A program made the position numbers and the translations under genes. 64,000 bases of DNA from an uncultured Flavobacteriaceae bacterium (GTDB taxonomy: Bacteria; Bacteroidota; Bacteroidia; Flavobacteriales; Flavobacteriaceae): contig CANMXP010000001.1 of assembly GCA_947501845.1 (NCBI GenBank), forward strand, positions 124,001 to 188,000, read 5' to 3'. Of the stretch, positions 48,999 through 64,000 are shown piece after piece. Under the pieces are notes generated by a model. The model was not told where the DNA came from and ran no database searches. It saw nothing but the letters and a program-made list of their open reading frames with translations. Each line of letters opens with the position of its first letter. Within the stretch, counting starts at the first letter, position 1.

Positions 48999-50450
48999 AT
49001 GGTATTTAACTCTTTAGATTTTTTTATTTTTCTTTTCATAGTTTTTGTTCTTTATTGGCTTCTTTTTAAGAAGCATGTAAAAATTCAAAATATATTTTTA
49101 CTGGTTGTTAGCTACATTTTTTATGGTTGGTGGGATTGGAGGTTTCTTTCTTTAATTCTATTAAGTACAACAGTAGATTATTTTGTTGGGATTATGATAG
49201 ATTCCAATACAAAACAATCGAAAAGAAAACAATGGCTTTGGGTTAGTGTTTTATTTAACGTAGGACTTTTAGGCTTTTTTAAATATTACAATTTTTTCGT
49301 AGACTCATGGATAGATATGTTCTCCATGTTTGGTTACCACATAAAAAGTACATGGACATTAAAAGTTATACTTCCTGTAGGCATCTCTTTTTATACATTT
49401 CAAACGATGTCATATTCATTTGATATTTACTATAACAAACTTAAGCCTACCAGAGATTTTTTGTCTTTTGCCGCTTTTGTAAGCTTCTTTCCTCAGCTTG
49501 TGGCTGGACCTATAGAGCGTGCATCAAATCTACTTTCTCAAATAACTAATAAAAGAACCTTTAGTTATAATCAATCCGTAAGTGGTTTAAAATTAATATT
49601 ATGGGGATTATTCAAAAAAGTTGTTATAGCAGATTCATTAGCTCCAATTGTCGATGATATTTTTGCCAATTATAGTAATTATCCAGCTTCGACACTTATT
49701 TTAGGAGTTACTTTATTTAGTTTTCAAGTATATGGTGATTTTAGTGGGTACTCCGATATCGCTATTGGTACGGCTAAATTATTTGGTATAGAACTAAAAT
49801 CTAACTTTAAATTCCCAAACTTCTCCAGAAATGTTGCCGAGTATTGGCAGCGTTGGCATGTTTCACTTTCTACTTGGTTTAGACATTATGTTTATATACC
49901 ACTTGGTGGTTCTCGAGTGAGTAAGCTTAAGTCTGTTAGAAATATTATTATAATCTTCTTGGTTAGTGGTTTTTGGCATGGAGCTAATTGGACGTTTATT
50001 GCCTGGGGAGCATTTCATGCTTTGGCATTTATCCCAGTGTTTTTAATGGGAAGAAATACCATTTATAAAAATAGTGTTGTAGGCGAAAACTCTTTGTTTC
50101 CTTCTTTAATTGAAATAGGGCAGGTGCTACTTACATTTTCTATTGTTACTTTTTCTAGAATATTTTTTAGATCGGAATCGATTACAGATGCATTTGCATT
50201 TATAAAAAGAATATTATCTAATTTCACATATGAAGTATATAATCACCCAATGGGGTATAGAATGGTTGATTATTATATCCTTATAGTTTTATTTGTTTTA
50301 TACGAATACCGCATTAGAAAAGATGAACGTGCTCCGTTTAAGTTTAAATCTAAAATAGTTAGGTTTATAATTTATACTATAGTCATTTTAGGTATGCTTC
50401 TTTTTTATGACAGTAATATTGACAGATCATTTATTTATTTTCAATTTTAA
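48999..50450 (+). CDS. MBOAT-family O-acyltransferase (AlgI-like)
   Basis: A 483-residue polytopic membrane protein that moves acyl groups across the inner membrane to sugars. It opens with MVFNSLDFFIFLFIVFVLYWLL and SYIFYGWWDWRFL, which are the first blocks of the AlgI/PatA group. The conserved histidines are His287 (YWQRWHVSLSTWFRH) and the catalytic His327 (VSGFWHGANW). Its length fits AlgI-like proteins rather than the shorter DltB. The SGNH gene follows five bases later; this pair usually O-acetylates an exported polysaccharide. TAATTTTG at 48923-48930 is a possible -7 box. Confidence 0.93.
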   Translation: MVFNSLDFFIFLFIVFVLYWLLFKKHVKIQNIFLLVVSYIFYGWWDWRFLSLILLSTTVDYFVGIMIDSNTKQSKRKQWLWVSVLFNVGLLGFFKYYNFFVDSWIDMFSMFGYHIKSTWTLKVILPVGISFYTFQTMSYSFDIYYNKLKPTRDFLSFAAFVSFFPQLVAGPIERASNLLSQITNKRTFSYNQSVSGLKLILWGLFKKVVIADSLAPIVDDIFANYSNYPASTLILGVTLFSFQVYGDFSGYSDIAIGTAKLFGIELKSNFKFPNFSRNVAEYWQRWHVSLSTWFRHYVYIPLGGSRVSKLKSVRNIIIIFLVSGFWHGANWTFIAWGAFHALAFIPVFLMGRNTIYKNSVVGENSLFPSLIEIGQVLLTFSIVTFSRIFFRSESITDAFAFIKRILSNFTYEVYNHPMGYRMVDYYILIVLFVLYEYRIRKDERAPFKFKSKIVRFIIYTIVILGMLLFYDSNIDRSFIYFQF

Positions 50451-50455
50451 CTAAG

Positions 50456-51403
50456 ATGAAAAAATTATTTTTAAAAACTGCTTTATACGCTATTTTGATT
50501 TTAATAGCTTTAGAAGTTATTGTTCGTGTTTTTCATTTAGCAAAAGATAATCCTTCTCGTTTTGTCGATAAATATAAAGTTGAAAAATGGATGCCTAACC
50601 AAGAAGGATATTCTGTAACAGGCAATCGTCGTCAAAATTTTTCAAAATTTTATATAAACAAGTCTGGTTATAATTCATATAGAGAATTTACACCTTCTAA
50701 GGAAGAGGTAGAAGTCGCACTTGTTGGTGACTCTTTTATTGAAGGATTTCATCAAAATTATTATAATTCTATAGGTAAAAAGATTGAAAATAGGGTAACA
50801 GATATTGAGGTTTATGAATATGGGTATGCTGGTTATGATTTAGCAGATCAATTGCACTTAATTAGTGCTTATAAGGAAACTTTTGATAAAATAGATTATG
50901 TTGTTCTGGGGCTGAAGTTTGAAAATGATCTGTTTAGAGGAGAGTACCAAGTTGTTCAAGATAGGATGCATTTAGAATCTCCTTTATATAAAAAGGCACG
51001 CGAAATTAAACTTTTGGTTTATACGCAAAATATAGGCATATTGGAACCTCTATGGAAACTGGCAGGTAAATTAGCATCTTTTGGAAAAAAGCAAAAATTA
51101 GTTCCAGAGAAAGTTGTAACCAAAGAAGATATTGAAGCAAGACATCTTACTTATATCAAAAATTTTAAAAGTTTAATAGATAAATACGGTTATGATAAAG
51201 AACGATTTGTATTTCTTTTGGATGCTAAAATTACACCTAAATTATTTTTAGATTATTTGCACGATAATAATTTTAAATACATTGATATGTATAAGCCTTT
51301 AAGCGCTTCTAAATTGCCAACAACGCTAATATATGATAGGCATTGGAACAATCATGGTAGGGAAATAATCGCAGAATTAATAGCAGATTATATAAAGCAA
51401 TAA
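50456..51403 (+). CDS. SGNH/GDSL-type membrane-anchored O-acetyl transferase partner
   Basis: A 315-residue protein. One N-terminal helix (about 5-25) anchors it with the catalytic domain outside. The nucleophile is in VALVGDSFIEGFHQ (Ser93), the Gly block in YGYAGYDLAD, and the Asp/His pair at the C-terminus in YDRHWNNHGREI, so a full Ser-Asp-His triad is present. The overall architecture is that of AlgJ/AlgX-like or DltD-like partners of MBOAT proteins. Starts five bases after the MBOAT stop; it is clearly one operon. Its stop is seven bases from the stop of the first gene of the opposite cluster. Confidence 0.88.
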   Translation: MKKLFLKTALYAILILIALEVIVRVFHLAKDNPSRFVDKYKVEKWMPNQEGYSVTGNRRQNFSKFYINKSGYNSYREFTPSKEEVEVALVGDSFIEGFHQNYYNSIGKKIENRVTDIEVYEYGYAGYDLADQLHLISAYKETFDKIDYVVLGLKFENDLFRGEYQVVQDRMHLESPLYKKAREIKLLVYTQNIGILEPLWKLAGKLASFGKKQKLVPEKVVTKEDIEARHLTYIKNFKSLIDKYGYDKERFVFLLDAKITPKLFLDYLHDNNFKYIDMYKPLSASKLPTTLIYDRHWNNHGREIIAELIADYIKQ

Positions 51404-51410
51404 TTGCTAT

Positions 51411-52463
51411 TTACAATCCGTTACATCTATATAATGGAAAAAAATCGAAATCACAACCACAACCTGGTGGTACGTATTCATCTACCAAACTATCATATAC
51501 TTTTTGGTTTATTATATGCTTCCATATTTTAAAAGGCTTAAAGTCTTTAGAAAATGAAGATTTAAACCTAAACAGCCCATCATCAGAATTACCTAACCCA
51601 CCTCCAAGATTAAAAAAGGATTTGTTTTCATTTTTGGCAATAATTCTCATTTCGTCAATTAGCAAACGAATAGGGGAAAGGTCTAAAAATTCAGCCTTGG
51701 TCCCAGAAAGATGATATTGAACAACATCATTCGTTTTTACCATCAATGCAGATGAAATGATTTCATTCGTGTTTTTTAAAACCGCAAATAAGATATCCGT
51801 TTCATAGTCATTACTATTTATAAATTTTAAAAAATAATCTTTTGAAAAATAATAATTTTCTTTTGCGTTAACACGATCCATGTTTTCATAATATAGATTT
51901 ACAAAACTATCGATATTCGACGGACAATTACTTCTTACTACATGGCATTGTTTTCTGCATTTATTTATGTAACGTTTCGTAATTTTAGAGTAGGATGCAC
52001 GTTGTTCCTCTAGGGGTGGGGTTAAATCGATATTAACAACATAACCTAGCTCTTGTGTTTTTCCTATATTTTTTAATACGGGGTCTTGATTATGGATAAA
52101 TGGGTTTAACCTTGAAAAGACAGAAATAATCTTTTCCTGTACAAAATAATTGTTTAATGCTTTTGAAAAGAGGCTGTTATCGAAGTTTTTATCAAGATTC
52201 TTTTGTAAAGGACCTGCATATCCATATACAGATGTGGCATCAAAATACTCTGTATCATTAATTTTTCTTATCAAGAAAGGAAAACAGATAATTTTATTTC
52301 CTTCAGTATATTTAAGTAAAATAGCTTTTTCATCATGTAATTTGGATAAATAATGATAATCATAGGTGTGATAAAAATCATAATAGCCAATATCATCTAG
52401 CGTATTGTGCCACTCGCTTTTTTTATCGATAACCTTTAAATTTGCTATTAATTTACTTCCCAT
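51411..52463 (-). CDS. FemAB/GNAT-like acyltransferase, stand-alone
   Basis: A 350-residue protein. It aligns by eye with the C-terminal half of the 886-aa fusion at 53680. Shared blocks: DATSVYGYAGPL (vs DAITPYGYSGPL), an IF-F-D-YF region with KENYYFSKDYF (vs KKVYFFSLKYF), NLGGGLGNSDDGLFRFK (vs VLGGGLKNNDGLYKSK) and the ending FFPLYRCN (vs FFPLYRFN). FemX/FemAB proteins have the GNAT fold and add amino acids to glycan or lipid precursors. Last gene of the long minus-strand cluster, 41 bases after the preceding gene. Confidence 0.75.
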   Translation of the reverse strand: MGSKLIANLKVIDKKSEWHNTLDDIGYYDFYHTYDYHYLSKLHDEKAILLKYTEGNKIICFPFLIRKINDTEYFDATSVYGYAGPLQKNLDKNFDNSLFSKALNNYFVQEKIISVFSRLNPFIHNQDPVLKNIGKTQELGYVVNIDLTPPLEEQRASYSKITKRYINKCRKQCHVVRSNCPSNIDSFVNLYYENMDRVNAKENYYFSKDYFLKFINSNDYETDILFAVLKNTNEIISSALMVKTNDVVQYHLSGTKAEFLDLSPIRLLIDEMRIIAKNENKSFFNLGGGLGNSDDGLFRFKSSFSKDFKPFKIWKHIINQKVYDSLVDEYVPPGCGCDFDFFPLYRCNGL

Positions 52464-52504
52464 ACTTTGAGTTTATAATCTCTACTGCATATATTTAAAA
52501 CTGA

Positions 52505-53650
52505 TTATATAAAAATAACTTGTTGCCTGTTTCTTTTTCCAACAATTAAATATGTTTTTTGAGGTTTTGAAACCTCATATACCGTTACAGTATTAATGTT
52601 TTCCATGCTTGAATACAAGAAATCGAAAAATGGTTTTCTTAAAAAATGATAATTTTCTAAATTAATATCTAACACTGTAAAATTTTCAAGATTTGATTCG
52701 CTATCAAATTTTGATGTAGTATATTTTGCTAGAAAAGGTTTTGTTTTTTTACGTTTTGCTTTCCAAGCTTTATATTTCACATATGCTATTTTATATATCC
52801 CTTCTTTAATTAATACTTTAAGGTATTCAATGTTTGCCTGTATAATTGCAAAAAATGATTTCTTGGGATAAATAATTTGATGTTCGAAATTATATATATT
52901 GTTAGACCACTCACGCTTATAGCTTAAATCTCCCATGCCCATTTCATAAGCATTATGTCCATTTTCAATACACCATTCTAATTTTTTATAGATTTCAATA
53001 TTTCCTAAACTAAATTTACCGTAATCGATATCGTATGAAGACACAGAACTAAATAACTTTCCATTATAATGATTGCTTATAGATATGCATATGGGCTCTG
53101 TGTCATTTTTAATGACAAAAAGAGATGCCTTTTTTTCATTAATTAAATTAAAAAATATCTTATGGTAATGATCCCAGTTTAGAAGATTTTGACTGACGTC
53201 ATCTCTTTGTTTGAACCTGTTTATGATCATCTTTTTAAGCATGTGCATTAAAAGATCATAATCTGTTTGAGAAATATTTCCATAAAAAAACTGGTAACTA
53301 ATAGGGAAACATAGCTCTAATCTTTTGACTCTTTTAAGAATAGATTTAGCATTTTTTTTGAAGCGGAATTTCAAATATTCATCAACAGTGGCAAATCCAT
53401 CCAATAAAATGGTATACCCTTTAAAGAATTGAGTAACTTTCTTTATGCTAAAGAGTTTACTATCAATTTTCGGAACAATATAATTTGGCACAAAAAATAT
53501 AGAATTAATAACATCTAAGTTTTTGTCTACATCATAATTAGAGTTAACAAAAGATTTTTGATCTTGAGCATACAAAACCTCCGAAAAAGTATCTGGGATG
53601 TTACTTTTTTCATAATATTCAAAAAAGAAATCGCTATTTTTTTTAGTCAT
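52505..53650 (-). CDS. GNAT-like acyltransferase (CelD/BcsL-like), 381 aa
   Basis: A 381-residue protein. The second half contains FVIKNDTEPICISISNHYNGKLF and SSYDIDYGKFSLGNIEIYKKLEWCIENGHNAYEMGMGDLSYKREW (about 236-280), which fit the PF13480-type GNAT domain found in polysaccharide clusters. In that fold LG-x-ie-x-k-x-lew is the usual acyl-donor-binding helix. N-terminal 100 residues are not assigned. Its sequence is not close to the FemAB-like pair, so it represents a third acyltransferase type. Thirty bases upstream lies the fusion gene. Confidence 0.72.
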   Translation of the reverse strand: MTKKNSDFFFEYYEKSNIPDTFSEVLYAQDQKSFVNSNYDVDKNLDVINSIFFVPNYIVPKIDSKLFSIKKVTQFFKGYTILLDGFATVDEYLKFRFKKNAKSILKRVKRLELCFPISYQFFYGNISQTDYDLLMHMLKKMIINRFKQRDDVSQNLLNWDHYHKIFFNLINEKKASLFVIKNDTEPICISISNHYNGKLFSSVSSYDIDYGKFSLGNIEIYKKLEWCIENGHNAYEMGMGDLSYKREWSNNIYNFEHQIIYPKKSFFAIIQANIEYLKVLIKEGIYKIAYVKYKAWKAKRKKTKPFLAKYTTSKFDSESNLENFTVLDINLENYHFLRKPFFDFLYSSMENINTVTVYEVSKPQKTYLIVGKRNRQQVIFI

Positions 53651-53679
53651 TATGGGGGAGGCTAGGGCTTTTATATATT

Positions 53680-56340
53680 TTATCTATTATTAAATCGGTA
53701 TAATGGAAAAAAGTAATTTTTTAATTCCTCTTCATGGATATTGGCATAATCTTCCATATGATTTTCACAGAGTTTGTCATAGGCTTTATAATCAATTATT
53801 TTCCTACCAGTATAAAATGTTACATCTTCGTCTTTAGGGAAAAGTGCTTTTTTACTCTTATATAGTCCGTCATTATTTTTCAACCCTCCACCGAGTACAT
53901 AATGTTGAAAATTATTTTCGATAGCCCATTTAATAATTTCTACTCTTAAAAAATCATTGGGTCTCTGATTATAGTAATTAGAGTCTGTTCCTCCTAAAAA
54001 GGCAAAGAATGTAGTGCCATTTTTTATGATGAGTTCAGCAGAAACAGGGGAGTCTCCCTGATAGGCGATTGCAATAGCGAACTCATCTATATTGTTAAGA
54101 ATTAAATTCTTAAAATATTTTAAAGAGAAAAAGTATACTTTTTTGGCATTATGCCTAATCATGGTTTCGGTATAAATGTCGAAAAAAAGCTTGATTATAT
54201 CCTCATTAATATCACTATTATCAAAAATTTTTATACTTAATTTAAAAGAAACAGCTTTACGGTAATTATTTCTTACTTTGGATGAAAACGCATCCCACTG
54301 TTTTTCAAAATTATTATAAAGCTGTCCCTTTACGTTCGAAAGTGAATTTATCAATAACCCTGTATAGCCCAGATAATTTTTGTTTAAGCTAAATCTAATA
54401 AACTCGGTAATGATATTATTCTTTTTGTACCAATTATCTACAGCTTTCCAGAACTCTTTTAAATCTAATTCAGTCGCATCATCATATAGTGGTCCACTAT
54501 ACCCATAAGGTGTGATAGCATCAAAGCATTTTAAATTAGCACTTTTCGATTTCACTCTTCTTAATATAATGGGCATTAATATTTTAGGATAACCATTAAC
54601 TTCAAATAGAAAATATTTTAAGTTACTTTTCTTTTTTTCAAAATACTTTAAATGGTCATAAGCATAGTAAATATTATTTTTCCAATTTTCCTTTAATAAT
54701 TTTTTATACTTAATGATATCTAAATCATTATCTAAATTATTAACTACTAATTTATAATCTTCTGGTTTGTAATTATCGGATTTGAATAAGTCATCAGCTA
54801 TAATTTTTGATAAAACTTTAGACAGCCATATAATTCTTCCACAGTGCTCGACGTGCCATACGGGTCTTTTTTCTATGACATTTCCTGCTAACATAGGCCC
54901 CATAATGTAGAGACCTTTACTAGCTTCTAGCGAATCACTTACATGGAATCCAATTTTAGATTCATTAGGAATACAATACCCTTTTTTTATTAAATTTTGA
55001 TGTATTGCTGGTATGTCATCATGGTCTAAATTTTTGCTTCCAACACAATTAATAACCAAATGAAAATGCTTACTATGTGTTTTTTCCTTTTTTGAGGATG
55101 TATCGAGATATTTTAAGCTATAATTACCGTTAACGTCTGATTCTAAATCATTGAAACGACCTTGTATATGTTCAAATCTATTTTCTTTTTCTAAGCCTGT
55201 TATAACATTTGAATAGTGTAATCCTGCACAACGTTGTCTTCTTCCTATTTGATTACCATATTTACAAGCAAATTCTTTAAGTTCTTTTGAGCTGAGGGTT
55301 TCAAGTAAGACACCAAAATATTTTGAAATTATTTCAACTGTAGATGCTGCACCCAAATTAATTTGGTCGGCAGAATCCAGATCTTTGAAGGTTGCCTCAG
55401 CTATCGATTTAGCCGTTATTTTTTTCTCTTTCCTTAATTTATTTAAATGAGTTGGAACAAACTCTTTCTGTTTTTCTACATCAATTACAGCATCAGGAAC
55501 TGTACCGTGAGTTGAAAGGAAAGTGAAGTTAGTTTTATTATGTTTATTTTTTGTATAATCATTTAGCTTATAGATTAATTCTAATGCACTAGCATTAGCG
55601 CCAACAATTAGTACATTTGTTACTTCTCCGTTTCTGTTGTTGATAAAGTTGTCTGTTTTTTCTAAAATAACCCTTAATTCTGGTTTATAGGGGTTGTTTA
55701 CAAACATCAAGTTTTTCTCTTCAACGAGGTACTTGTTTTTCCAAAGGTAATTTATTGGCAACGAGCCCACAGATAAAACTACTTTTTTAGAGCCTATTTC
55801 TGTACCGTTCTCTAAAAATATTTTATAGTTGGATTGGTTTTTATCAAGATCTATTACTTCTCCAGTAACAAAATTAACATCAATAAGTCCTTTTTCTGTA
55901 AGTTCTTTTATTTTATTGTTAACTCTTAAATTAATATAGCAGCCAAAAAAGCGTCGCGGGATAAAAAGGTCTTCCCAGTTATTATTGCTAATCTTCTCTT
56001 CGTTGTCTAAGAGCCATTTTTTAGATAATGCGCCTCCTTCTTTTTCAAATTCGTCTAAAAGCCAAGTCTTATTTTTATTGAGCCACTTTATAAACAAACC
56101 AAGTTCTGGTTCTATTAAAAAATTCCTCAAAGAAGTTATTAAAAGGGTAGAGAAACCAGACCTCGTACCGTATGGAATGCCAAGGTTGAATTCAGAATAT
56201 TTTTCAATAATGTTAATAGATATTTTGCTACCAACATGAGCTTCATTATTGATTTGATCTAAAAAATTTATAATACTAAAAGAGGTTGAAATCCCAGAAC
56301 CAATAAATGAAATATCTGATATTTTTTTATGTGTTTCCAA
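53680..56340 (-). CDS. FAD/NAD(P)-binding enzyme fused to a FemAB/GNAT-like domain
   Basis: An 886-residue two-part protein. Residues 1 to about 520 look like the FAD-NAD(P)-binding family PF13454. They have a dinucleotide loop SFIGSGISTSFSIINFL (about 11-27), a second nucleotide loop NVLIVGANASALELIYKL (about 242-259), PSTVEI-type and GRRQRCAGLHYSN segments, and VINCVGSKNLDHDD. Residues about 530-886 form a FemAB-like domain homologous to the whole gene at 51411. The junction lies near KYKKLLKENWKNNIYYAYDHL. The fusion suggests that an oxidation or reduction step and an acyl transfer act on the same substrate. The next gene upstream ends seven bases before its start. Confidence 0.82.
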   Translation of the reverse strand: METHKKISDISFIGSGISTSFSIINFLDQINNEAHVGSKISINIIEKYSEFNLGIPYGTRSGFSTLLITSLRNFLIEPELGLFIKWLNKNKTWLLDEFEKEGGALSKKWLLDNEEKISNNNWEDLFIPRRFFGCYINLRVNNKIKELTEKGLIDVNFVTGEVIDLDKNQSNYKIFLENGTEIGSKKVVLSVGSLPINYLWKNKYLVEEKNLMFVNNPYKPELRVILEKTDNFINNRNGEVTNVLIVGANASALELIYKLNDYTKNKHNKTNFTFLSTHGTVPDAVIDVEKQKEFVPTHLNKLRKEKKITAKSIAEATFKDLDSADQINLGAASTVEIISKYFGVLLETLSSKELKEFACKYGNQIGRRQRCAGLHYSNVITGLEKENRFEHIQGRFNDLESDVNGNYSLKYLDTSSKKEKTHSKHFHLVINCVGSKNLDHDDIPAIHQNLIKKGYCIPNESKIGFHVSDSLEASKGLYIMGPMLAGNVIEKRPVWHVEHCGRIIWLSKVLSKIIADDLFKSDNYKPEDYKLVVNNLDNDLDIIKYKKLLKENWKNNIYYAYDHLKYFEKKKSNLKYFLFEVNGYPKILMPIILRRVKSKSANLKCFDAITPYGYSGPLYDDATELDLKEFWKAVDNWYKKNNIITEFIRFSLNKNYLGYTGLLINSLSNVKGQLYNNFEKQWDAFSSKVRNNYRKAVSFKLSIKIFDNSDINEDIIKLFFDIYTETMIRHNAKKVYFFSLKYFKNLILNNIDEFAIAIAYQGDSPVSAELIIKNGTTFFAFLGGTDSNYYNQRPNDFLRVEIIKWAIENNFQHYVLGGGLKNNDGLYKSKKALFPKDEDVTFYTGRKIIDYKAYDKLCENHMEDYANIHEEELKNYFFPLYRFNNR

Positions 56341-56347
56341 CTTAATT

Positions 56348-56971
56348 CTATTTTTTAGTTTTTATTACTTTTCCTGGATTTCCAACGACAGTTGAATAAT
56401 CAGGTACATCTTTTAATACAATAGTTCCAGCACCAATAGTACACCATTTACCAATTTTTACTTTTGGTATGACTACAGCACCAACACCTACATGAGATCC
56501 TTCTCCAACTTCTACATGACCACATAAGGCTGCTTTAGGAGAGATATGGGCATAATCGCCAATAACGTTATCATGATCAACACTTGCCCCAGTGTTTATA
56601 ATGACATGTTTTCCGATAGAAGTATTGGGTTGAATAATAGCACCTGCGAATACTACGGTACCGTCACCAATTTTTGCTGTTTTTGAAATAATAGCCGATT
56701 GGTGAATCGCTTTCTCATAAGTACAGTTTAAAAAACCAGCAATTTCTGCACGCTCCGCATTTATTCCTACAGCTATAATTACAGGATCTCCATCATGAGG
56801 GAAAGCGTTTAGGTTTTTTCTAGCCCCTCCAGCTACATTTTTAGAGGCATGATGAACACCTTCTGGTTTGTCATCAAAAGTTTCAGTAACTACATAATTG
56901 TTAATTTCTAAAACTTCTTTTATTACTTGAGAGTGACCACCAGCACCATATATTCTTACTTTATTTTTCAT
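56348..56971 (-). CDS. PglD/NeuD-like sugar acyltransferase, left-handed beta-helix
   Basis: A 207-residue protein. N-terminal Rossmann-like part KVRIYGAGGHSQVIKEVLEINNY, then hexapeptide repeats (about 95-200). The catalytic histidine of PglD-like enzymes is in TGASVDHDNVIGDYAHISP, and the ending STVVGNPGKVIK is typical. PglD N-acetylates the 4-amino group of UDP-4-amino sugars in bacillosamine synthesis. The adjacent PglC-like gene (57005) strengthens that reading. Whether it transfers acetyl or another acyl group is not shown by sequence. Confidence 0.87.
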   Translation of the reverse strand: MKNKVRIYGAGGHSQVIKEVLEINNYVVTETFDDKPEGVHHASKNVAGGARKNLNAFPHDGDPVIIAVGINAERAEIAGFLNCTYEKAIHQSAIISKTAKIGDGTVVFAGAIIQPNTSIGKHVIINTGASVDHDNVIGDYAHISPKAALCGHVEVGEGSHVGVGAVVIPKVKIGKWCTIGAGTIVLKDVPDYSTVVGNPGKVIKTKK

Positions 56972-57004
56972 TTTATAGGTTGATTCTTTTAAATATTTTT
57001 ATCC

Positions 57005-57607
57005 TTAATTACCTTTCCATGTAGGCATAGTCATATTTTCATTAGTATTAACGCCGTCTTTTTTAATAACCTTGAGAACTGTTAGAAAAAAAATTTTCAC
57101 GTCTAAGCTTAAGCTTAAATTCTTTACATACCATACATCATATTCGAATTTTTGATTCCAACTCAAGGCGTTTCTTCCTTTTACTTGTGCCCATCCGGTA
57201 ATACCTGGTCTTACATGGTGTCTTGTCTTTTGAACATCGTCATATAATGGTAAATATTCAACTAACAAAGGCCTGGGGCCAATAATACTCATATCGCCCT
57301 TTAAAACATTCACAAGCTGTAAAACTTCATCTAAAGAATATTTTCTTATAAAGGCTCCTGCTTTTGTGACACGTGAAAGACTATGGACTTCGTTTTTAGC
57401 GTTTGGATTTAAATCTCTCATCGTTTTAAACTTAATAATCTTAAAAAGCTTTCCGTGTTTACCTGGTCTCGACTGTAAAAAAAACGGTTTACCATTATTA
57501 GTAAAAATTAATATGATGATAATGATTAAAATCAGTGGTGATAAAATGACCAAGCCTATTACTGAAATTAAAAAGTCCAGAAAATGTTTAAAAAATAATG
57601 AGTACAT
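57005..57607 (-). CDS. Initiating sugar-phosphate transferase, PglC-like
   Basis: A 200-residue monotopic phosphoglycosyl transferase. The re-entrant membrane helix is at about 9-33 (FLDFLISVIGLVILSPLILI), followed by GKPFFLQSRPGKHGKLFKIIKFKTM. The catalytic Asp-Glu pair is in KYSLDEVLQLVNVLKGDMSIIGPRPLL, and [15 protein letters not shown] is fully typical. It transfers a sugar-1-phosphate from a UDP-sugar to undecaprenyl phosphate, starting a lipid-linked glycan. The small size matches PglC (about 200 aa). A close paralogue is at 61218. Confidence 0.92.
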   Translation of the reverse strand: MYSLFFKHFLDFLISVIGLVILSPLILIIIIILIFTNNGKPFFLQSRPGKHGKLFKIIKFKTMRDLNPNAKNEVHSLSRVTKAGAFIRKYSLDEVLQLVNVLKGDMSIIGPRPLLVEYLPLYDDVQKTRHHVRPGITGWAQVKGRNALSWNQKFEYDVWYVKNLSLSLDVKIFFLTVLKVIKKDGVNTNENMTMPTWKGN

Positions 57608-57637
57608 TAAATAATTCTTATTTGTTTAAGAAACATA

Positions 57638-58306
57638 TTATTTTGCTAAATATGGTTCTCCTATTTGTCTATCCCTAATCTTTTTTCCTGGTATGCCATA
57701 TACCAAAAGGTTGTTTCCTACATCTTCCAAAATCAAAGTGCCAGCACCAATAATGGTATGCTTCCCTATTTTTATATCTTGAATAATCGAAGTGCCTATA
57801 GACACTGCCGAAAATTCACCTATGCTAACATTTCCACCTATGGTTGCATTGGGAGCCAAACTGGAAAAGCTATCCATGACACTGTCATGTCCTAAAGATG
57901 ATTTTGTATTTAATATACAAAATGGGGCTATTTTAGCTTCAGCATTTACTATCGCCCCAGCCATTATAACGACACCAGGTTCTATTTTTAAACCGTTACA
58001 TAAAACTGCATTTGGATGTACAGCTGGTAAAAACTTAAATTCTGGTGCAACCTTTTTAATCGTATCCCTCACTTTATTCCTTGACCAATTATCTCCAATC
58101 GCGATAACGCCTCCAACAATGTTTTCCTTTTCTATCAATTCTGGTATTAAATCTTCTTTTCCTAAAATGGTGTAACCCATTATTTTTTGATTAGCATTTT
58201 TGTAAGAGTCAATAAGTCCAACAATTTGATATTCATTTCGCTTTTCAATAATATCAATTATAACTTTTGCATGACCTGATGCTCCAATAATTACTATTTT
58301 TTTCAC
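57638..58306 (-). CDS. Second PglD/NeuD-like sugar acyltransferase
   Basis: A 222-residue protein with the same plan as the gene at 56348: Rossmann part KKIVIIGASGHAKVIIDIIEKRNEY, hexapeptide repeats from about 90, likely catalytic histidine in TKSSLGHDSVMDSFSSLAP and the ending LLVYGIPGKKIRDRQ. It differs from the other copy by roughly half its residues, so it probably has a different substrate or acyl group. It lies between the carrier-protein gene and the PglC-like gene, which suggests the acyl donor might be an ACP-bound group instead of acetyl-CoA. That is an inference. Confidence 0.85.
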   Translation of the reverse strand: MKKIVIIGASGHAKVIIDIIEKRNEYQIVGLIDSYKNANQKIMGYTILGKEDLIPELIEKENIVGGVIAIGDNWSRNKVRDTIKKVAPEFKFLPAVHPNAVLCNGLKIEPGVVIMAGAIVNAEAKIAPFCILNTKSSLGHDSVMDSFSSLAPNATIGGNVSIGEFSAVSIGTSIIQDIKIGKHTIIGAGTLILEDVGNNLLVYGIPGKKIRDRQIGEPYLAK

Positions 58307-58348
58307 CTTTATTATTTTTTTGGGGAGTTTTAATAATGATGAAAGTTA

Positions 58349-58597
58349 CTAATTTATTGACAATTCTGTTTCAATGCAGTTTAATAGATCCCCAACACTG
58401 TTCATATTCATTAGGTCCATTAACTTAAATTTAATATCAAAAGTTTTTTCAATCTCAGTAATAATAATCATATGCGTGATTGATTCCCAACCATCAACAT
58501 CTTCTGCCGTTGTTGCATTTGTAAGCTCAAAATTATTGTGCTCTAAAACACCTGAAAATACTTTGCTGACTTTTGTTAAAATTTCTTCTCTACTCAT
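58349..58597 (-). CDS. Acyl/peptidyl carrier protein
   Basis: An 82-residue four-helix carrier protein. The phosphopantetheine site is in DVDGWESITHMIIITEIEK, Ser39, with the typical hydrophobic residues following; the sequence DGWESITHM deviates from the classic DSLD/GGxS motifs but is common in carriers of stand-alone systems. FDIKFKLMDLMNMNSVGDLLNCIE matches helix III-IV. Its start is four bases from the stop of the adenylating enzyme, so the two are surely a pair, like DltA and DltC. Sharing with fatty-acid synthesis is unlikely because the surface charge and motif differ from AcpP. Confidence 0.88.
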   Translation of the reverse strand: MSREEILTKVSKVFSGVLEHNNFELTNATTAEDVDGWESITHMIIITEIEKTFDIKFKLMDLMNMNSVGDLLNCIETELSIN

Positions 58598-58601
58598 AGT
58601 T

Positions 58602-60098
58602 CTATTTTATATCGAAATGTTTTTTTAGTTCTTTTCTATTAATTTTGCCATTAATACTGTGTGGAAAATCTTTTATGAATCTAACATGCATCGGAATCAT
58701 ATAATTTGGCATTTTGGTTTTCATATAATCAAAAATATATGAGGTCTCAAAAGGCTCAGATTCAATAGCCAATCCTAGTTCAGCATTACCAAGTTTATTA
58801 TTAATATCTAATGCAACGATATTAACCTTTTTCTCAGATTTTGATTTGGCATGAAATTCAATTTCTGATAATTCTACACGATATCCCCTGATTTTTACCT
58901 GAAAATCAGCCCTGCCCACATAAAGAAAATCGTTGTCTTTATCCTTTATGCATAAATCTCCAGTTTTGTAATACCTTATATCTTTGCCGTTTTCGTTTCT
59001 AACAAAGAAACTTTGTTTATTTTTTTCTTCATTTTTCCAATACCCGGGTGTTATTTGTGGTCCTCCTAAGCAAAGCTCTCCTGTTTCACCTATAGAAACC
59101 TCCTCATTGTTTTCATTTACAACTAGGTATAATGTGTCTTTTTGCGGTGTCCCAATGGCAATTATGCCATTATAGGCTTTTGTATGCGTGTCTTTATGGT
59201 ATGGATAAAAACCACTATAAACAGTAAACTCTGTTGGTCCGTAATAGTTAAATATTTTACAGTTTGGTAAACACTCGCTCCATTCTTTTGCTATATCACT
59301 ATGCAAAGCGCCACCTCCAAAACTACAGTACCTTACAGATTCTTCATTAATTTCTGGAAAATAAGGACGCAAATAATTAATTATTGATGGCACCATAGTT
59401 AGAACTGTTAGTGCTTTCTCCTTAATGAGTTTGAAAATATAAAAATATTTTATTGTTCCTTTTGGTATGGTATACATGCAGGATCCTGCTAACAAAGGAA
59501 ACAAATAGGTTACAACAGAAAAATCGAATGTTAATTCGAACATCTGAAGACATCTGTCTGTATTATTTAGATTGAATTCTGGCTCTGCGTCTATGGCATT
59601 TACCAAAGCTTGTATATTATTAAATGTAATAGGAACGCCTTTTGGTACACCTGTTGTACCTGAAGTGAATAAAATATATGCTAAATGCTCTCCTGAAAAA
59701 TCTTTTGGACTTAGGCTAGGGTGCAGGTCTTCTAAAATGTTTGAATTAATGACTTTGTAATCATTATAAATTGACTCTTTTGAAGAGTCAATAACATGCT
59801 CGGTTTTTGTTAATTCAAAAATATGATGGTTTCTATCTAAAGGCGTTTCTGGGTTTACAGGCACATAGGCTTTTCCTTCTAACCAAAGCGCAATAATGCT
59901 GGCATATGTTTGAATATCATCATTTGTAACTAAGCCAATTAACTTTTCGTCTTCTTCAATAGTGTTTACAATAGCTTGCCTGATTTTTCTAACTTCAATT
60001 TCAAAATCTTTATACGTAAAATAAACATTGCTAATACAAAGTGAATTATGCTCCGCATTTTTTTCTATCGATTTCTGTATGTTTTTTATAAAATCCAT
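58602..60098 (-). CDS. Stand-alone amino-acid-type adenylating enzyme (DltA-like / NRPS A domain)
   Basis: A 498-residue ANL-superfamily enzyme with the motifs of amino-acid adenylation domains: A3 YILFTSGTTGVPKG (141-154), A5 NYYGPTE (284-290), A7 YKTGDL (377-382), A8 GRADFQVKIRGYRVELSEIE (395-414) and A10 NGKINRKE with Lys485. The A4-region Asp that binds an alpha-amino group is present (FELTFDFS, Asp192), which favours an amino-acid substrate over a fatty acid. Size and partner carrier gene match DltA (about 500 aa). The substrate pocket could not be decoded by eye. It would activate the acid with ATP and load it on the carrier at 58349. Confidence 0.88.
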   Translation of the reverse strand: MDFIKNIQKSIEKNAEHNSLCISNVYFTYKDFEIEVRKIRQAIVNTIEEDEKLIGLVTNDDIQTYASIIALWLEGKAYVPVNPETPLDRNHHIFELTKTEHVIDSSKESIYNDYKVINSNILEDLHPSLSPKDFSGEHLAYILFTSGTTGVPKGVPITFNNIQALVNAIDAEPEFNLNNTDRCLQMFELTFDFSVVTYLFPLLAGSCMYTIPKGTIKYFYIFKLIKEKALTVLTMVPSIINYLRPYFPEINEESVRYCSFGGGALHSDIAKEWSECLPNCKIFNYYGPTEFTVYSGFYPYHKDTHTKAYNGIIAIGTPQKDTLYLVVNENNEEVSIGETGELCLGGPQITPGYWKNEEKNKQSFFVRNENGKDIRYYKTGDLCIKDKDNDFLYVGRADFQVKIRGYRVELSEIEFHAKSKSEKKVNIVALDINNKLGNAELGLAIESEPFETSYIFDYMKTKMPNYMIPMHVRFIKDFPHSINGKINRKELKKHFDIK

Positions 60099-60116
60099 TG
60101 TTATTTAGTCAAATTA

Positions 60117-61208
60117 TTAATAAAAATGACCGTCTCTATTATGTAATTCAACATCTTTTAAGCTTAAATTGTTATGCGCTAAACCTTTTTTCTCCGATTT
60201 ATGTGTAAAGACCGTAAAGAACCTTTTTTGTATGTTCTCTGTTAGTTTTGTGTCATCGGTAAATATAAATTTTGCTCTTTTATTAATGAAGTTTTCAATA
60301 AGCACATCCACACATAAATCGTAATACTCTTCTTTTTCTACTAAAAAATACTTGACATTAAATTCATTATAATTTATAATAAAAGATATAAAACCTATTG
60401 TTTTTTCGTCTTTTAAAATTTTCAAACTGTATCCGTAGATATTATTACTAGTTCCTGTTTCAAGGGATTTATATCGTTGCTTAGCAGGAACGACTAGCTG
60501 TGTAAATTGTTTATTATCTATTTGCCAGCTTATATAGTCTTTAGACTTTACTATTAAGTCATTTTTACATAATGGCTCGATAAAATCCCAGGCTTCATCA
60601 TCTAATTCATTTATATAATCATAGAAAAGGTCTTTCGTTCTTCGCTTTAGTTTATTATAATTTATCTTATTAATTATCGACGCTATGACATAATCAAATT
60701 TATCGAGGAAATAACGAAATGGTTTTAAAAATTTAAATCTCCCAACCAACATGGACGGATCTACACTTAAAAAAATAGTATATCTTAATCTCGTTGCTAT
60801 GACGGAAAAAGGCTGCTTGCTGTAAAAATCGGCAATATGCTCAGCATAAGATTTAATTAATATATTGTTGTCTGCTAGTTTTAACGCTTCATAAAATGTA
60901 TATGTGCCCAGAACTGTATTTTCATATTTAGGGTCAACCCACCATGAAATCATCCAATATACTTTTTTAGACTCATCGTTTTTTAAATTCAATAAATCTG
61001 GAATCATATAAATAAATGAAATCATTTTTTGGTCTTCCAGAGTTATTATACAGCAATAATCGTCATCTTCAATCCTAGAATTAGACAAAAGCCAAGAAGC
61101 TTTGCTTTTGGGCAAAGGAGCAAAACCTTTTTTCCAATAGGTGTTTTGTTCAATGCTATCACGCAGCATTTTTTTTGTAATCCCTAAGACTTTTAAATCT
61201 TTACTCAT
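60117..61208 (-). CDS. Putative GNAT-like acyltransferase, 363 aa
   Basis: A 363-residue soluble protein. It opens VLGITKKMLRDSIEQNTYWKKGFAPLPKSKASWLLSNSRI. A first GNAT-like half has VYWMISWWVDPKYENTVLGTYTFYEALKLA (about 82-111, beta4 and the following helix of the fold), and a second half has IYGYSLKILKDEKTIGFISFIINYNEFNVKYFLVEKEEY. The two halves suggest a tandem GNAT. It lies directly upstream of the adenylating enzyme (18 bases) and after the second PglC-like gene (nine bases). A role in passing the carrier-bound group to the sugar is plausible; no family name is certain. Confidence 0.65.
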   Translation of the reverse strand: MSKDLKVLGITKKMLRDSIEQNTYWKKGFAPLPKSKASWLLSNSRIEDDDYCCIITLEDQKMISFIYMIPDLLNLKNDESKKVYWMISWWVDPKYENTVLGTYTFYEALKLADNNILIKSYAEHIADFYSKQPFSVIATRLRYTIFLSVDPSMLVGRFKFLKPFRYFLDKFDYVIASIINKINYNKLKRRTKDLFYDYINELDDEAWDFIEPLCKNDLIVKSKDYISWQIDNKQFTQLVVPAKQRYKSLETGTSNNIYGYSLKILKDEKTIGFISFIINYNEFNVKYFLVEKEEYYDLCVDVLIENFINKRAKFIFTDDTKLTENIQKRFFTVFTHKSEKKGLAHNNLSLKDVELHNRDGHFY

Positions 61209-61217
61209 TGTTAAATA

Positions 61218-61823
61218 CTAATTCTTTCCATTAAAATATTCGGATGTTAACTCGTTAGATAAATTCACATCTTTTTTTTGTAAAACCTTGAGAATTGTTA
61301 ATCCGATTATTTTTAAATCCAATAAAAAACTCATGTTTTCGACATACCAAACATCTAGTTCAAATTTCTTATTCCATGTTATTGAATTTCTTCCGTTTAC
61401 TTGTGCCCAACCAGTAATACCTGGTTTTACGTCATGTCTTTTTTTTTGAGTTTCGTTATAAACAGGTAAATACTCAATAATAAGTGGGCGAGGGCCTACT
61501 AATGACATATCTCCAATTAACACATTAAAAAGTTGAGGAATCTCATCCAGTGAATATTTTCTAACAAACTGCCCTGCAGCTGTGATACGGTCTTTATCGG
61601 GTAACAAATTGCCTTCTTTGTCTCTTAAGTTATTCATTGTCTTAAACTTAACAATTTTGAATATCTTTTCTTTTTTGCCTGGTCTTTTTTGAAAGAAAAA
61701 AGGAGTCCCTTTATTGGAAACCATTAGAAAAAAAGCAACAATTATTATTAAAGGAGAAAATAGAATTAACCCTATAAAGGCAAAAAAGGAATCTAATAGT
61801 CGCTTAATTATTTTTTTATACAA
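61218..61823 (-). CDS. Second initiating sugar-phosphate transferase, PglC-like
   Basis: A 201-residue paralogue of the gene at 57005: membrane helix [25 protein letters not shown] (about 9-33), [52 protein letters not shown] and [15 protein letters not shown]. Both have all catalytic residues, so both should be active. Two initiating enzymes in one locus suggests two different glycan starts, or two related substrates. A 139-base gap upstream contains TATATTTG on the minus strand (61876-61883), a possible -7 box and the probable start of a sub-operon. Confidence 0.9.
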
Positions 61824-61962
61824 ACTCTACGGTTTACTTAAACTTATTTCTTTGCTGCTATTAATAATTCAATGTCAAATATATAATTATCTATAAGATT
61901 ATAGCTTTACAAATTGGTAAATCCGTTCTTCTATGTTGTTTTATCGGTAAGGTGTTTGTTTA

Positions 61963-63276
61963 TTATTGACTTGGATTACTTTTGTAATAATTATTTATTG
62001 TAGCCTTTCTTTTTCCAGATGCTAGTAATGGGATTTCTTCTACATAATTGACTTCTATTTCTGCATCTTCACCTAAATACCCTTTAAACTCATTAACCAC
62101 ATCAATTTCTTGGTTAAATTCATTAGTTACATTTAATTTTAGTGTATATCCTTTTTTCGATTCTTGAATGAGCTGCCCTTGAATAATTCCTATATACTCT
62201 ACGACATTAATTATAATAAACGAGGAAACAATTTCTCCTTTAGTATTATATATCACATCTGTTTTTCTTCCTTCTACACTTTTAAAAACAGGCGGATTGA
62301 TAGTATAATCAATTATGCCTACATCACCTGTGTCATAGCGTATTAAAGGGGTTGCATAGTTATATAAATCTGTAACAATAATTCTACCAGCTTCATCTTT
62401 TCCTGCTGGTTTATCTTCATCTAGTTTAAAAGTTTCAACATAATAACTTGCCCAATTTATTGAGAAGCTCTCACTTTTTGTTTTTTGCTGAGCAATAATA
62501 CCATTTTCATTGTTTGAATACCTAGAAACTACTTGCGCATTAAAATACTTATGCATAGATTCTTTAGTGTATTTGTTAAGACTTTCAGACATAGCTATAA
62601 TTGATTTTACATAGCTATTTATAGGTTTAGATTTGGTTTTGTCGAGATACTTGCATATTAATTCATAGCCTGAAGCATATCCTAGCCATCCTTTAGCAGA
62701 TTTATCTTTTTTAATTTTGTTGATAATACTTTCTATGTACTGATCATTAAGATTAACAACTTCTAGTTCTTCAATATTTTGTATAAATTTTGTTATAGAT
62801 GATTTTTTATAATAAGCATTCCAATTTCTCAGATATAAAAGTTTGTAACCTATTTTAAAGCCAGCTAGTTTTCCAAAATAAATAGAATCTGCTGTATTTC
62901 GGACAATTTTGTTTTTGTCTTGTTTTACTTTTAAAGCTAAACCAGTTGATCCGCTTGTGGAAACTGTTTTTGTTTTTTTATTCGTGTAGTTTTGAGCTTG
63001 GAATTCTTTACTACGGGTTATTAAAACATTTTTGTCAATTACAGGGAAATCTTCTATGTTTTTATAATTCTTGTAAAAAGGAGTTGATTCATTAGCATGA
63101 TTCAATAAATCTATCAAGCTTTTTTCCCTGAGTTCTTTTGATTTAGATTCGGAAAAGTTTTCTAAAATATATGAAATATCCTTATAATGGCGTTTTATTT
63201 TTGCCCCTTTGATCATATCCAAAAACCAAAAAAATGTAAATCTTAGATATTCTAGGCATGAAGTTAATAGTTTCAT
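61963..63276 (-). CDS. PaaK/CapK-like adenylate-forming enzyme
   Basis: A 437-residue protein of the phenylacetate-CoA ligase-like family that appears in capsule clusters as CapK. The N-terminus has LLNHANESTPFYKNYKNIEDFP. The P-loop is VSTSGSTGLALKVKQDK (about 107-123). RYSNNENGIIAQQ, IVTDLYNYATPLIRYDTGDVG and SVEGRKTDVIYNTKGEIVS are family blocks containing the catalytic acidic and arginine residues. The C-terminal LASGKRKATINNY carries the probable catalytic lysine. Likely forms an acyl adenylate and then a thioester or amide; substrate is unknown. Confidence 0.85.
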   Translation of the reverse strand: MKLLTSCLEYLRFTFFWFLDMIKGAKIKRHYKDISYILENFSESKSKELREKSLIDLLNHANESTPFYKNYKNIEDFPVIDKNVLITRSKEFQAQNYTNKKTKTVSTSGSTGLALKVKQDKNKIVRNTADSIYFGKLAGFKIGYKLLYLRNWNAYYKKSSITKFIQNIEELEVVNLNDQYIESIINKIKKDKSAKGWLGYASGYELICKYLDKTKSKPINSYVKSIIAMSESLNKYTKESMHKYFNAQVVSRYSNNENGIIAQQKTKSESFSINWASYYVETFKLDEDKPAGKDEAGRIIVTDLYNYATPLIRYDTGDVGIIDYTINPPVFKSVEGRKTDVIYNTKGEIVSSFIIINVVEYIGIIQGQLIQESKKGYTLKLNVTNEFNQEIDVVNEFKGYLGEDAEIEVNYVEEIPLLASGKRKATINNYYKSNPSQ

Positions 63277-63322
63277 TTTTACTTTTAATTTCTTGAGCGT
63301 TTTTAATAATGATTTACAAGCC

Positions 63323-64000
63323 TTAAATTTTAATATTTACACTAATAAAATGTGCTATTTCAGTTGTAAATAATCTAGAGCCATCGTCGTTTAGGTGAGA
63401 TGGATCGTGAAACAGTTCAAATTGATTAGTATATTTTGGAGCGTTTAAGAAGTCTAAAAACGGAATTTCTTCAGAATCAGCAATTTCTTTTATTCTATTC
63501 AATGATTCGTTATTAGAAATATTTCTTTCAATTAGATTTGGAGAGGTGACAAATAGAAGTTTTACATTGTTCCGTTTTGCTTCAGAAATAAAATCTTTTA
63601 ACGCTTTCACAAAATAATCGTCAATTTCTTCAATAAATTCTTTTTCTGAATGATTCTTTTCATGAATAGCAGCTTTTTTAGGTGTCATTTTATCATCCAA
63701 TGGTCGATACCCCTTGTAATCAATTTGTGGCGACAAATAATACCTTAAAGCATGAATGAGTGTAGAGTTTGTTTGGTATGACTTAAAGAATAGTTTAAAA
63801 TCTATTAAGTTGGAATTTAAACCCAATATAGGTCTTAGCTCATGTTTAAAATCTTCGTAATAAGGATGTAAATCACTAAGCCTGTCGTAGGCTTTGCTAG
63901 ATTTATAAAGAAAGTTTTCATCAATATTTAATACCAGTAATTTAGGTTGTGTCCTTTTTAAAATCATTTTCTGCAAAGCAGTATGGTAGAGTAGTTGCTG
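63323..64000 (-). CDS. SGNH-like esterase/transferase, C-terminal part (5' end beyond the window)
   Basis: The frame is open from the stop at 63323 to the window edge, about 225 residues; a start at the TTG at 63976 is possible in principle, but the sequence upstream reads on without a stop and family members are longer (about 300 aa), so the true start is outside. KPKLLVLNIDENFLYK-like text near the edge and FHDPSHLNDDGSRLF at the C-terminus (Asp and His of the triad) are characteristic. It is a second SGNH protein of the cluster, in addition to the one at 50456. Probably modifies the glycan with an acyl group. Confidence 0.75.
   Translation of the reverse strand, partial: QQLLYHTALQKMILKRTQPKLLVLNIDENFLYKSSKAYDRLSDLHPYYEDFKHELRPILGLNSNLIDFKLFFKSYQTNSTLIHALRYYLSPQIDYKGYRPLDDKMTPKKAAIHEKNHSEKEFIEEIDDYFVKALKDFISEAKRNNVKLLFVTSPNLIERNISNNESLNRIKEIADSEEIPFLDFLNAPKYTNQFELFHDPSHLNDDGSRLFTTEIAHFISVNIKI

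Follow-up and report, generated by a model that had tools for sequence, protein, structure and literature searches.

We analyzed a 64,000-nucleotide stretch (the window; positions 124001 to 188000 of contig C1 in a 5.37-Mb genome) of an uncultured Flavobacteriaceae bacterium, and in it a gene run at 51411-64000 where a stand-alone amino-acid adenylation enzyme (A-domain) and a small carrier protein stand among genes for amino sugars. Twelve open reading frames (ORFs) follow one another there on the minus strand, as a first-pass annotation made from the sequence had described, with gaps of 41, 29, 7, 33, 30, 42, 4, 18, 9, 139, and 46 bases. Protein families were assigned with Pfam and NCBIfam models. 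Coordinates given as joined run through the window and the next 52 kb of the contig, where ORFs were called too. The gene order recurs in related loci, as would not be expected by chance, and this excludes the possibility that the genes do not co-occur elsewhere; the set recurs in related genomes, but as two separable cassettes.

Cassette I consists of an 82-amino-acid (aa) phosphopantetheine carrier (58349..58597; PF00550, 26.1 bits, cut-off 20.8), the 498-aa stand-alone A-domain (58602..60098; PF00501, 192.2 bits), which lies four bases from the carrier as first annotated, and a 363-aa tandem GNAT protein, here called GNAT363 (60117..61208; weak Acetyltransf_1 match of 22.9 bits and an AlphaFold 2 [AF2] fold). 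A PglC-like sugar-phosphate transferase (b; 61218..61823; PF02397, 211.4 bits, cut-off 27) adjoins it. Cassette II holds an 886-aa flavoenzyme-FemAB fusion (53680..56340; FAD-NAD(P)-binding PF13454, 41.6 bits; FemAB_like PF04339, 28.9 bits, cut-off 27, with an Acetyltransf_6 match as well), a PglD/NeuD-type acyltransferase (a; 56348..56971; TIGR03570, 206.7 bits, cut-off 160.8), and another PglC-like transferase (a; 57005..57607; PF02397, 204.5 bits, cut-off 27). The run also contains a second PglD/NeuD-type acyltransferase (b; 57638..58306; TIGR03570, 183.0 bits, cut-off 160.8), a FemAB family protein (FemI, 51411..52463; PF02388, 47.6 bits, cut-off 24), and a CelD-like GNAT (52505..53650; PF13480, Acetyltransf_6, 41.2 bits). 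All are on the minus strand, and the two FemAB-like domains, the CelD-like GNAT, and the paired PglD-like and PglC-like proteins of the first annotation all found Pfam or NCBIfam matches.

The run is real, with corrections to two of its twelve minus-strand genes. The gene at 61963..63276 encodes a relative of PaaK/CapK-like AMP ligases (57.4 bits with the AMP-dependent CoA ligase model NF045666, cut-off 300) and is a variable neighbor, present in 28 of the 56 related A-domain loci described below, where a CelD-like gene occurs in 43. The SGNH-like ORF at 63323..64000 is cut by the window end, runs to joined 64267, and adjoins an MBOAT gene at joined 64271-65680. It had no Pfam match, and its role is judged from this adjacency; the two genes are probably a separate O-acylation pair outside the cytoplasmic set.

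Two adenylation-domain clades with different partners

A search for relatives of the A-domain found 90, of which 80 loci (L003-L082) were kept and all examined, with neighbors counted by tblastn. A-like places were dropped if they lay on the opposite strand or had <38% identity; this left 83, 56 of them nearest to this A-domain (first clade) and 27 nearest to a second A-domain in the same genome (second clade). An uncultured Flavobacteriaceae bacterium holds the nearest relative among these hits (95%), followed by Flavivirga algicola (91%). A FastTree phylogeny of 85 sequences (the 83 and the two of this genome) sets the clades apart with a support of 0.997.

In the first clade, GNAT363 lies directly upstream of the A-domain in 55/56 loci (the exception, L022, is a 4-kb contig) and the carrier within 200 bp downstream in all 56. 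A PglC-like gene is found within 4 kb in 54 loci, and 53 have two such genes. A FemAB-type gene lies no farther than 9 kb away in 53 loci, 44 have the flavin adenine dinucleotide (FAD) domain, and none has an MBOAT gene within 3 kb downstream of the A-domain. The second clade has neither GNAT363 nor PglC (0/27 each); the carrier is present in 25/27 loci (12 within 200 bp) and an MBOAT gene within 3 kb downstream in 21/27. In distant Bacteroidota (L063, L066, L071, L073, L074, L076-L078, and L082), a single-domain GNAT of ∼220 aa lies near the second-clade A-domain, accompanied in L073 and L074 by FabH/FabD/SDR-like genes (named by eye).

The A-domain-like enzyme with an amino-group-binding Asp192 that was first annotated is borne out by alignment. 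In an alignment of 27 sequences, Asp192 never varies and falls on the Asp that binds the amino group, and D192 (PheA 235) and K485 (PheA 517) are kept in the window A-domain and in 56/56 clade relatives. A fatty-acid or aryl-acid ligase, which would be at odds with the scheme of that annotation, is disfavored by the invariant Asp192 and by family ranking. With positions mapped by motif onto PheA numbering, the pocket code reads DFVTSGYVYK (D192, F193, V196, T234, S259, G261, Y285, V293, Y294, and K485). It is identical in 54/56 relatives (the exceptions are L052, DMVTSAYIYK, and L065, DATKVGHVCK), despite A-domain identity dropping to 47% within the clade. At the site of the DltA-like Cys, the D-Ala determinant of DltA, this A-domain has Gly261, and 19 of the 27 second-clade members have Cys. 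Since the code is near-invariant at identities down to 47% and the clades differ in Gly and Cys, the substrate is probably constant within the first clade and different from that of the second. The bulky F193, Y285, and Y294 would lead us to guess at a small amino acid. In the carrier, DGWESI surrounds the modifiable Ser, and W-[EDN]-S is kept in 65/65 carrier ORFs called. A plasmid search with the A-domain returned 2554 records, all of <60% identity (best, Segatella copri, 37.9%), and provided no DltA for alignment.

Cassette I resembles the Dlt system (DltA, DltC, DltB, DltD, and DltX) in that a surface-polymer pathway includes a stand-alone DltA-like A-domain with a small carrier beside it, and its carrier could, by analogy, feed an MBOAT/SGNH pair of the locus, so that the amino acid would be esterified to the polymer outside the cell. 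Six MBOAT genes, each beside an SGNH-like gene (by eye), do occur in the wider locus, at 48999-51403 (plus strand) and at joined 63323-65680, 73881-76289, 78877-81254, 81282-83625, and 89248-91634. The first pair stands at the locus edge, divergent from the run, with the MBOAT at 48999-50450 (plus strand; PF03062, 106.8 bits) and its SGNH-like partner at 50456-51403 (plus strand; Lipase_GDSL, 16.7 bits, below the cut-off). All six MBOATs end in FIYFQF, and the F.Y..F acyl-shuttle motif ends all 97 MBOAT ORFs of >430 aa recognized in the 80 loci. The six pairs suggest several different O-acylations. Moreover, a second A-domain, carrier, MBOAT, and SGNH-like gene lie in a row on the minus strand at joined 89248-93382 (G000:C1:213248-217382; L084), ∼30 kb from cassette I, and the paralogous A-domain and carrier have an MBOAT close downstream in most of the second-clade loci (21/27).

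This paralogous set is close to a Dlt unit. Its MBOAT scores 166.4 bits with the DltB model (cut-off 375) and carries the shuttle motif itself, unlike DltB with DltX. In the available text of one report, MBOAT/SGNH systems other than Dlt are without a carrier and have an FXYXXF shuttle motif on the MBOAT (PMC12148441). With the shuttle motif at the end of all 97 MBOAT ORFs, the MBOAT of the paralogous set seems to be fed by a carrier and to have a shuttle of its own. Cassette I differs from Dlt in having a soluble tandem GNAT where Dlt has MBOAT/SGNH, with no first-clade locus showing a close downstream MBOAT, in its Gly at the DltA Cys site, and in a score under the DltA cut-off; a search of the genome for the DltA family gave nothing above its cut-off. 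At one locus (L013, described below), the cassette stands in 21.5 kb without an MBOAT match. Our best model is that the Dlt-like route in the locus is served by the paralogous set and not by cassette I, for which esterification outside the cell appears unlikely.

GNAT363 and the smallest recurring unit

The 363-aa GNAT-like protein of the first-pass annotation is confirmed by the weak Acetyltransf_1 match and by a tandem-GNAT model. The AF2 model, built with 24 sequences, has a predicted local distance difference test (pLDDT) score of 89.2. In VIA it aligned with the N-myristoyltransferase 8fi5 at Z 20.0 (291/363 residues, model 1-362; root mean square deviation, 3.5 Å; 11% identity), and all 50 VIA rows listed are N-myristoyltransferases; the absence of FemX from these rows does not speak against a likeness to it. 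Foldseek returned tandem-GNAT proteins including VipF, Eis2, and N-myristoyltransferases, and sequence searches of the PDB gave nothing meaningful. The C-terminus NRDGHFY is fixed in 50/55 members. N-myristoyltransferase uses its C-terminal carboxylate as a base, and the fixed C-terminus of GNAT363 is, by analogy, a lead toward such catalysis.

Remote homologues of GNAT363 in four of the five genomes of one other genus with a GNAT363 match (L104-L107, in G252, G237, G139, and G277) adjoin a gene for a Polysacc_deac_1 protein in all four cases. The two genes are a possible deacetylate-then-reacylate pair, and these neighbors, together with the fixed C-terminus, fit N-acylation of an amino sugar. 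The P-loop of the remote homologues reads RKKRPAK (3/4) or RGKRIAQ (1/4), and that of GNAT363 is non-basic (e.g., ENTVLGT), which might weakly point to a carrier rather than coenzyme A (CoA) as donor.

GNAT363 and the A-domain travel together. Within the genus, GNAT363 was found in 11 of 12 genomes and the A-domain (E≤1e-100) in the same 11, with the two ranges 12-26 bases apart; in the twelfth, neither GNAT363 nor a close A-domain was found. In a sample of 296 genomes of the order, GNAT363 had matches in 8: two at E<1e-100 (its own genome and G138), five more in one other genus with E from 6e-9 to 2e-17, and a marginal, broken one in G079. The A-domain reached E≤1e-100 in 2/296, again its own genome and G138, and in G138 the two genes lie side by side with the carrier behind them. 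Just behind that carrier, on the opposite strand, is a formyltransferase gene (L103:14896-15750), which hints that this sugar or amino acid may also be N-formylated.

At L013 (Mariniflexile), GNAT363, the A-domain, and the carrier occur without PglC, FemAB, FAD domain, or MBOAT in 21.5 kb. The neighbors scanned there were LolA, LptF/LptG, riboflavin, DegT aminotransferase (271.6 bits), nitroreductase, phage-type integrase, and LuxR-type genes. Because L013 has only these three genes, and because of their co-occurrence in the genus and the order, GNAT363, the A-domain, and the carrier constitute the smallest recurring unit. The phage-type integrase and the DegT aminotransferase lie near the isolated cassette at L013:11832-16559, so the cassette may have moved there as a unit.

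L013 also speaks for another explanation, namely, that the cassette works like a nonribosomal peptide synthetase (NRPS) and makes an aminoacyl metabolite (e.g., an N-acyl amino acid) rather than part of a polysaccharide. The cassette stands there between riboflavin/LptFG-type genes and the DegT-nitroreductase-integrase stretch, outside any recognizable polysaccharide locus, and the N-myristoyltransferase-like fold of GNAT363 and the N-oxygenase-like flavoenzyme near cassette I would suit such a product. However, PglC lies close by in nearly all first-clade loci (54/56), the locus of the window genome holds Poly_export, Wzz, and glycosyltransferase-like genes, and export or siderophore genes were not recognized in the run by Pfam and NCBIfam scans. 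Even at the isolated unit, the gene next door encodes an aminotransferase of the sugar-type DegT family. We regard a small-molecule role as quite improbable.

The flavoenzyme, FemAB, and PglD cassette

The 886-aa fusion of cassette II comprises a flavoenzyme with two dinucleotide domains (residues 1 to ∼525) and a FemAB-type domain (∼527-886), which are split in other loci. By profile comparison, both FemAB groups match FemX (E 2.8e-14). Across the 56 loci, the FAD domain is fused to FemAB in 8 and to PglD in 18 and stands alone in 18; PglD is fused to FemAB in 2, one of which (L065) holds a PglD-FemAB-FemAB protein. Since they are fused in all three pairwise combinations, PglD, the FAD domain, and FemAB are functionally tied. 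No fusion of the FAD domain to the A-domain or the carrier occurs among these architectures.

The first-pass annotation had proposed that the amino acid is oxidized or reduced on the carrier by the FAD enzyme and transferred by the FemAB proteins. All the genes do lie in one run, a FemAB-type gene is near the A-domain in 53/56 loci, the FAD domain has a monooxygenase-like fold, and it is fused to FemAB or to PglD in the 8 and 18 loci given above. The FAD domain was, however, not found in 12/56 A-domain loci (among them L022, whose 4-kb contig is too short for a judgment); in 10 of the 12, the pocket code is unchanged. The main argument against carrier-bound oxidation comes from the order sample. 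The FAD domain occurs in three other genomes of the 296, and in two of them, G079 and G281, it stands in the same locus with the same MBOAT/SGNH-like neighbors and with FAD-FemAB, PglD, and PglC. The 20 kb examined at this locus contained no A-domain, GNAT363, or carrier, and genome-wide no A-domain reached E≤1e-100. In the third, G271, a remoter FAD protein (∼40% identical) stands elsewhere. Because G079 and G281 carry cassette II without cassette I, the FAD and FemAB proteins appear independent of the carrier and so would do without this A-domain and carrier, unless an unrecognized carrier serves them in these two genomes. The constant partner of the A-domain and carrier is the tandem GNAT363, not the FemAB proteins, and we give little credence to a scheme of carrier-bound oxidation or reduction followed by FemAB transfer.

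As to what the flavoenzyme does, its structural model (pLDDT 73.6) drew N-hydroxylating monooxygenases at Foldseek ranks 1-24, with the aspartate N-hydroxylase FzmM giving the best query TM (0.53). VIA gave bacillithiol (Bdr) and thioredoxin reductases at Z 17-19 over ∼300 residues, PvdA, SidA, and KtzI at Z ∼17 over 365-378, and FzmM at Z 15.7 over 427, the longest alignment. A CxxC motif was present in 0/18 FAD members, which speaks against the thioredoxin-reductase type. PF13454 matched 18/18 members and PF13434 (Lys/Orn oxygenase) only one, at E 0.06, and sequence searches of the PDB gave the domain no meaningful match. In the model, residues 288-385 include helices, and N363, R368, and R370 are invariant. 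The available text on FzmM describes an arginine cluster and, separating the dinucleotide domains, a helical domain (PMC10404684), and N-hydroxylating monooxygenases (PvdA, SidA, and FzmM) share with the FAD domain the two dinucleotide-binding domains and a helical part between them. They differ in that the FAD domain is fused to FemAB or PglD and lacks a PDB sequence match, and the Bdr and thioredoxin reductases score slightly higher Z with the model, at shorter lengths. We hold with moderate confidence, from the predicted fold, that the enzyme resembles N-hydroxylating monooxygenases.

A surface-polysaccharide locus and the proposed role of the cassettes

From the gene families in and beyond the window, the region is a surface-polysaccharide locus. 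Beyond the window it continues with more MBOAT/SGNH-like pairs, glycosyltransferase-like genes (named by eye), the second A-domain/carrier pair, a flippase-like protein whose scanned part matches Polysacc_synt at 25.8 bits, below the cut-off of 28.2, a TviB-like dehydrogenase, and a TviC-like epimerase. Next, on the plus strand, come a DegT aminotransferase, whose best model is the LegC family (LegC/PseC-like; 376 bits, cut-off 420), a FlaA1-like protein whose C-terminal part is PseB-like (191.3 bits, cut-off 407.75), and Poly_export/SLBB (Wza-like) and Wzz/AAA_31 (Wzc-like) proteins. A close DegT homologue is present in the examined stretch of 21/56 A-domain loci. Judged by these families, which score under their equivalog cut-offs, the locus can probably make 4-amino-4,6-dideoxy sugars. 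The original placement of an amino-acid-type A-domain and carrier in a polysaccharide locus, tied to amino-sugar genes (DegT, FlaA1/PseB-like, PglD, and PglC), is thus supported.

Two further features of the locus were observed. Six related CelD-like proteins, all matching Acetyltransf_6, lie in tandem on the minus strand at joined 67066-73864 (L083), and runs of CelD-like proteins resembling this array occur in L003-L008, L065, and L113. A 662-aa protein at joined 76822-78810 (plus strand) has Beta_helix and NosD matches, and its relatives are found in 40/56 A-domain loci, on the strand opposite to the cassette.

Further systems for comparison are Campylobacter Cj1307/Cj1308, the Vibrio cholerae tetronate genes, and butirosin BtrI/BtrH. 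The first-pass annotation knew of no described system, which is too strong for the principle, since Dlt and the viosamine genes acp and vioB are known. In the available text on Pseudomonas syringae flagellin, N-acylation of viosamine involves acp, vioS, vioR, and vioB and depends on acyl carrier protein (ACP) (PMC3927599). As presented there, a carrier gene and an acyltransferase gene serve a surface glycan, at the 4-amino position of a dideoxy sugar, as would be the case here. The acyl group, however, comes from 3-oxoacyl-ACP enzymes; in cassette I, an amino acid would be activated by the A-domain, and the constant putative transferase is a tandem GNAT. The FemAB domains of the locus resemble FemABX and HfsK through their profile match to FemX. 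For HfsK of the Caulobacter holdfast, FemX is the closest solved homologue, and HfsK was indirectly shown to modify a non-peptidoglycan polysaccharide; the text available describes for HfsK/FemABX no fusion to a flavoenzyme or PglD such as is seen here (PMC5362036). The principle is already known; no description of the present gene combination was found in the open-access literature (titles and abstract openings, among the matches listed).

We favor, with moderate confidence, two cassettes, of which I would attach a carrier-loaded amino acid to an amino sugar by means of GNAT363 and II would make a separate modification. Several points weigh against this view. The A-domain scores 295.9 bits with TIGR01733 (AA-adenyl-dom), below the cut-off of 317.4, and 251.1 (TIGR01734, cut-off 559.85) and 265.8 bits with the DltA models, both below their cut-offs. 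The specificity code that the first-pass annotation had wished to see predicted was derived and is conserved, but we know of no code that it matches. No N-myristoyltransferase Pfam family matches GNAT363, so that this likeness is one of predicted fold only, and the DegT and PseB-like proteins score under the equivalog cut-offs given above. At L013 the cassette lies outside a recognizable polysaccharide locus, so that something other than a polysaccharide sugar could be the acceptor. Finally, the counts are not independent, since this A-domain served as bait for the loci and most of them belong to Aquimarina and Flavivirga species that are related to one another.

The chemistry that follows, including substrate and acceptor, is throughout our inference from gene order, protein families, code conservation, fold models, and separability. 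The A-domain would adenylate a single small amino acid and load it onto the 82-aa carrier, from which GNAT363 would transfer it inside the cell to an amino sugar, forming an amide with an amino group there. As acceptor, we consider most likely the 4-amino group of a 4-amino-4,6-dideoxy-N-acetylhexosamine made by the FlaA1/PseB-like dehydratase and DegT of the locus, either UDP-linked or on the lipid product of PglC, before export; PglC and the export genes would build and export the polymer. In cassette II, the PglD acyltransferase, the flavoenzyme (probably an N-oxygenase), and the FemAB-type transferases may act on an amino sugar, drawing on donors different from this carrier, such as aminoacyl-tRNA or acyl-CoA. 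More speculatively, and in our view unlikely, the flavoenzyme would be an amino-acid or sugar N-hydroxylase, and the fused FemAB or PglD domain would then acylate its product, much as hydroxamate siderophores are made, except that the substrate would be a lipid-linked amino sugar. Together with the carrier-fed GNAT363, this would yield a surface polysaccharide with N-hydroxylated aminoacyl (hydroxamate-like) groups. If this were true, the hydroxamate-like groups of the polysaccharide could bind metal.

The A-domain, the carrier, and the tandem GNAT form a defined unit for reconstitution, with which one could ask whether amino acids are placed on glycan amines from a carrier and not from tRNA. 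One locus would couple paralogous A-domain/carrier pairs to two types of transferase, a soluble GNAT or a membrane MBOAT/SGNH, and the PglD-FAD, FAD-FemAB, and PglD-FemAB fusions point to an unstudied modification of amino sugars with a possible N-oxygenase.

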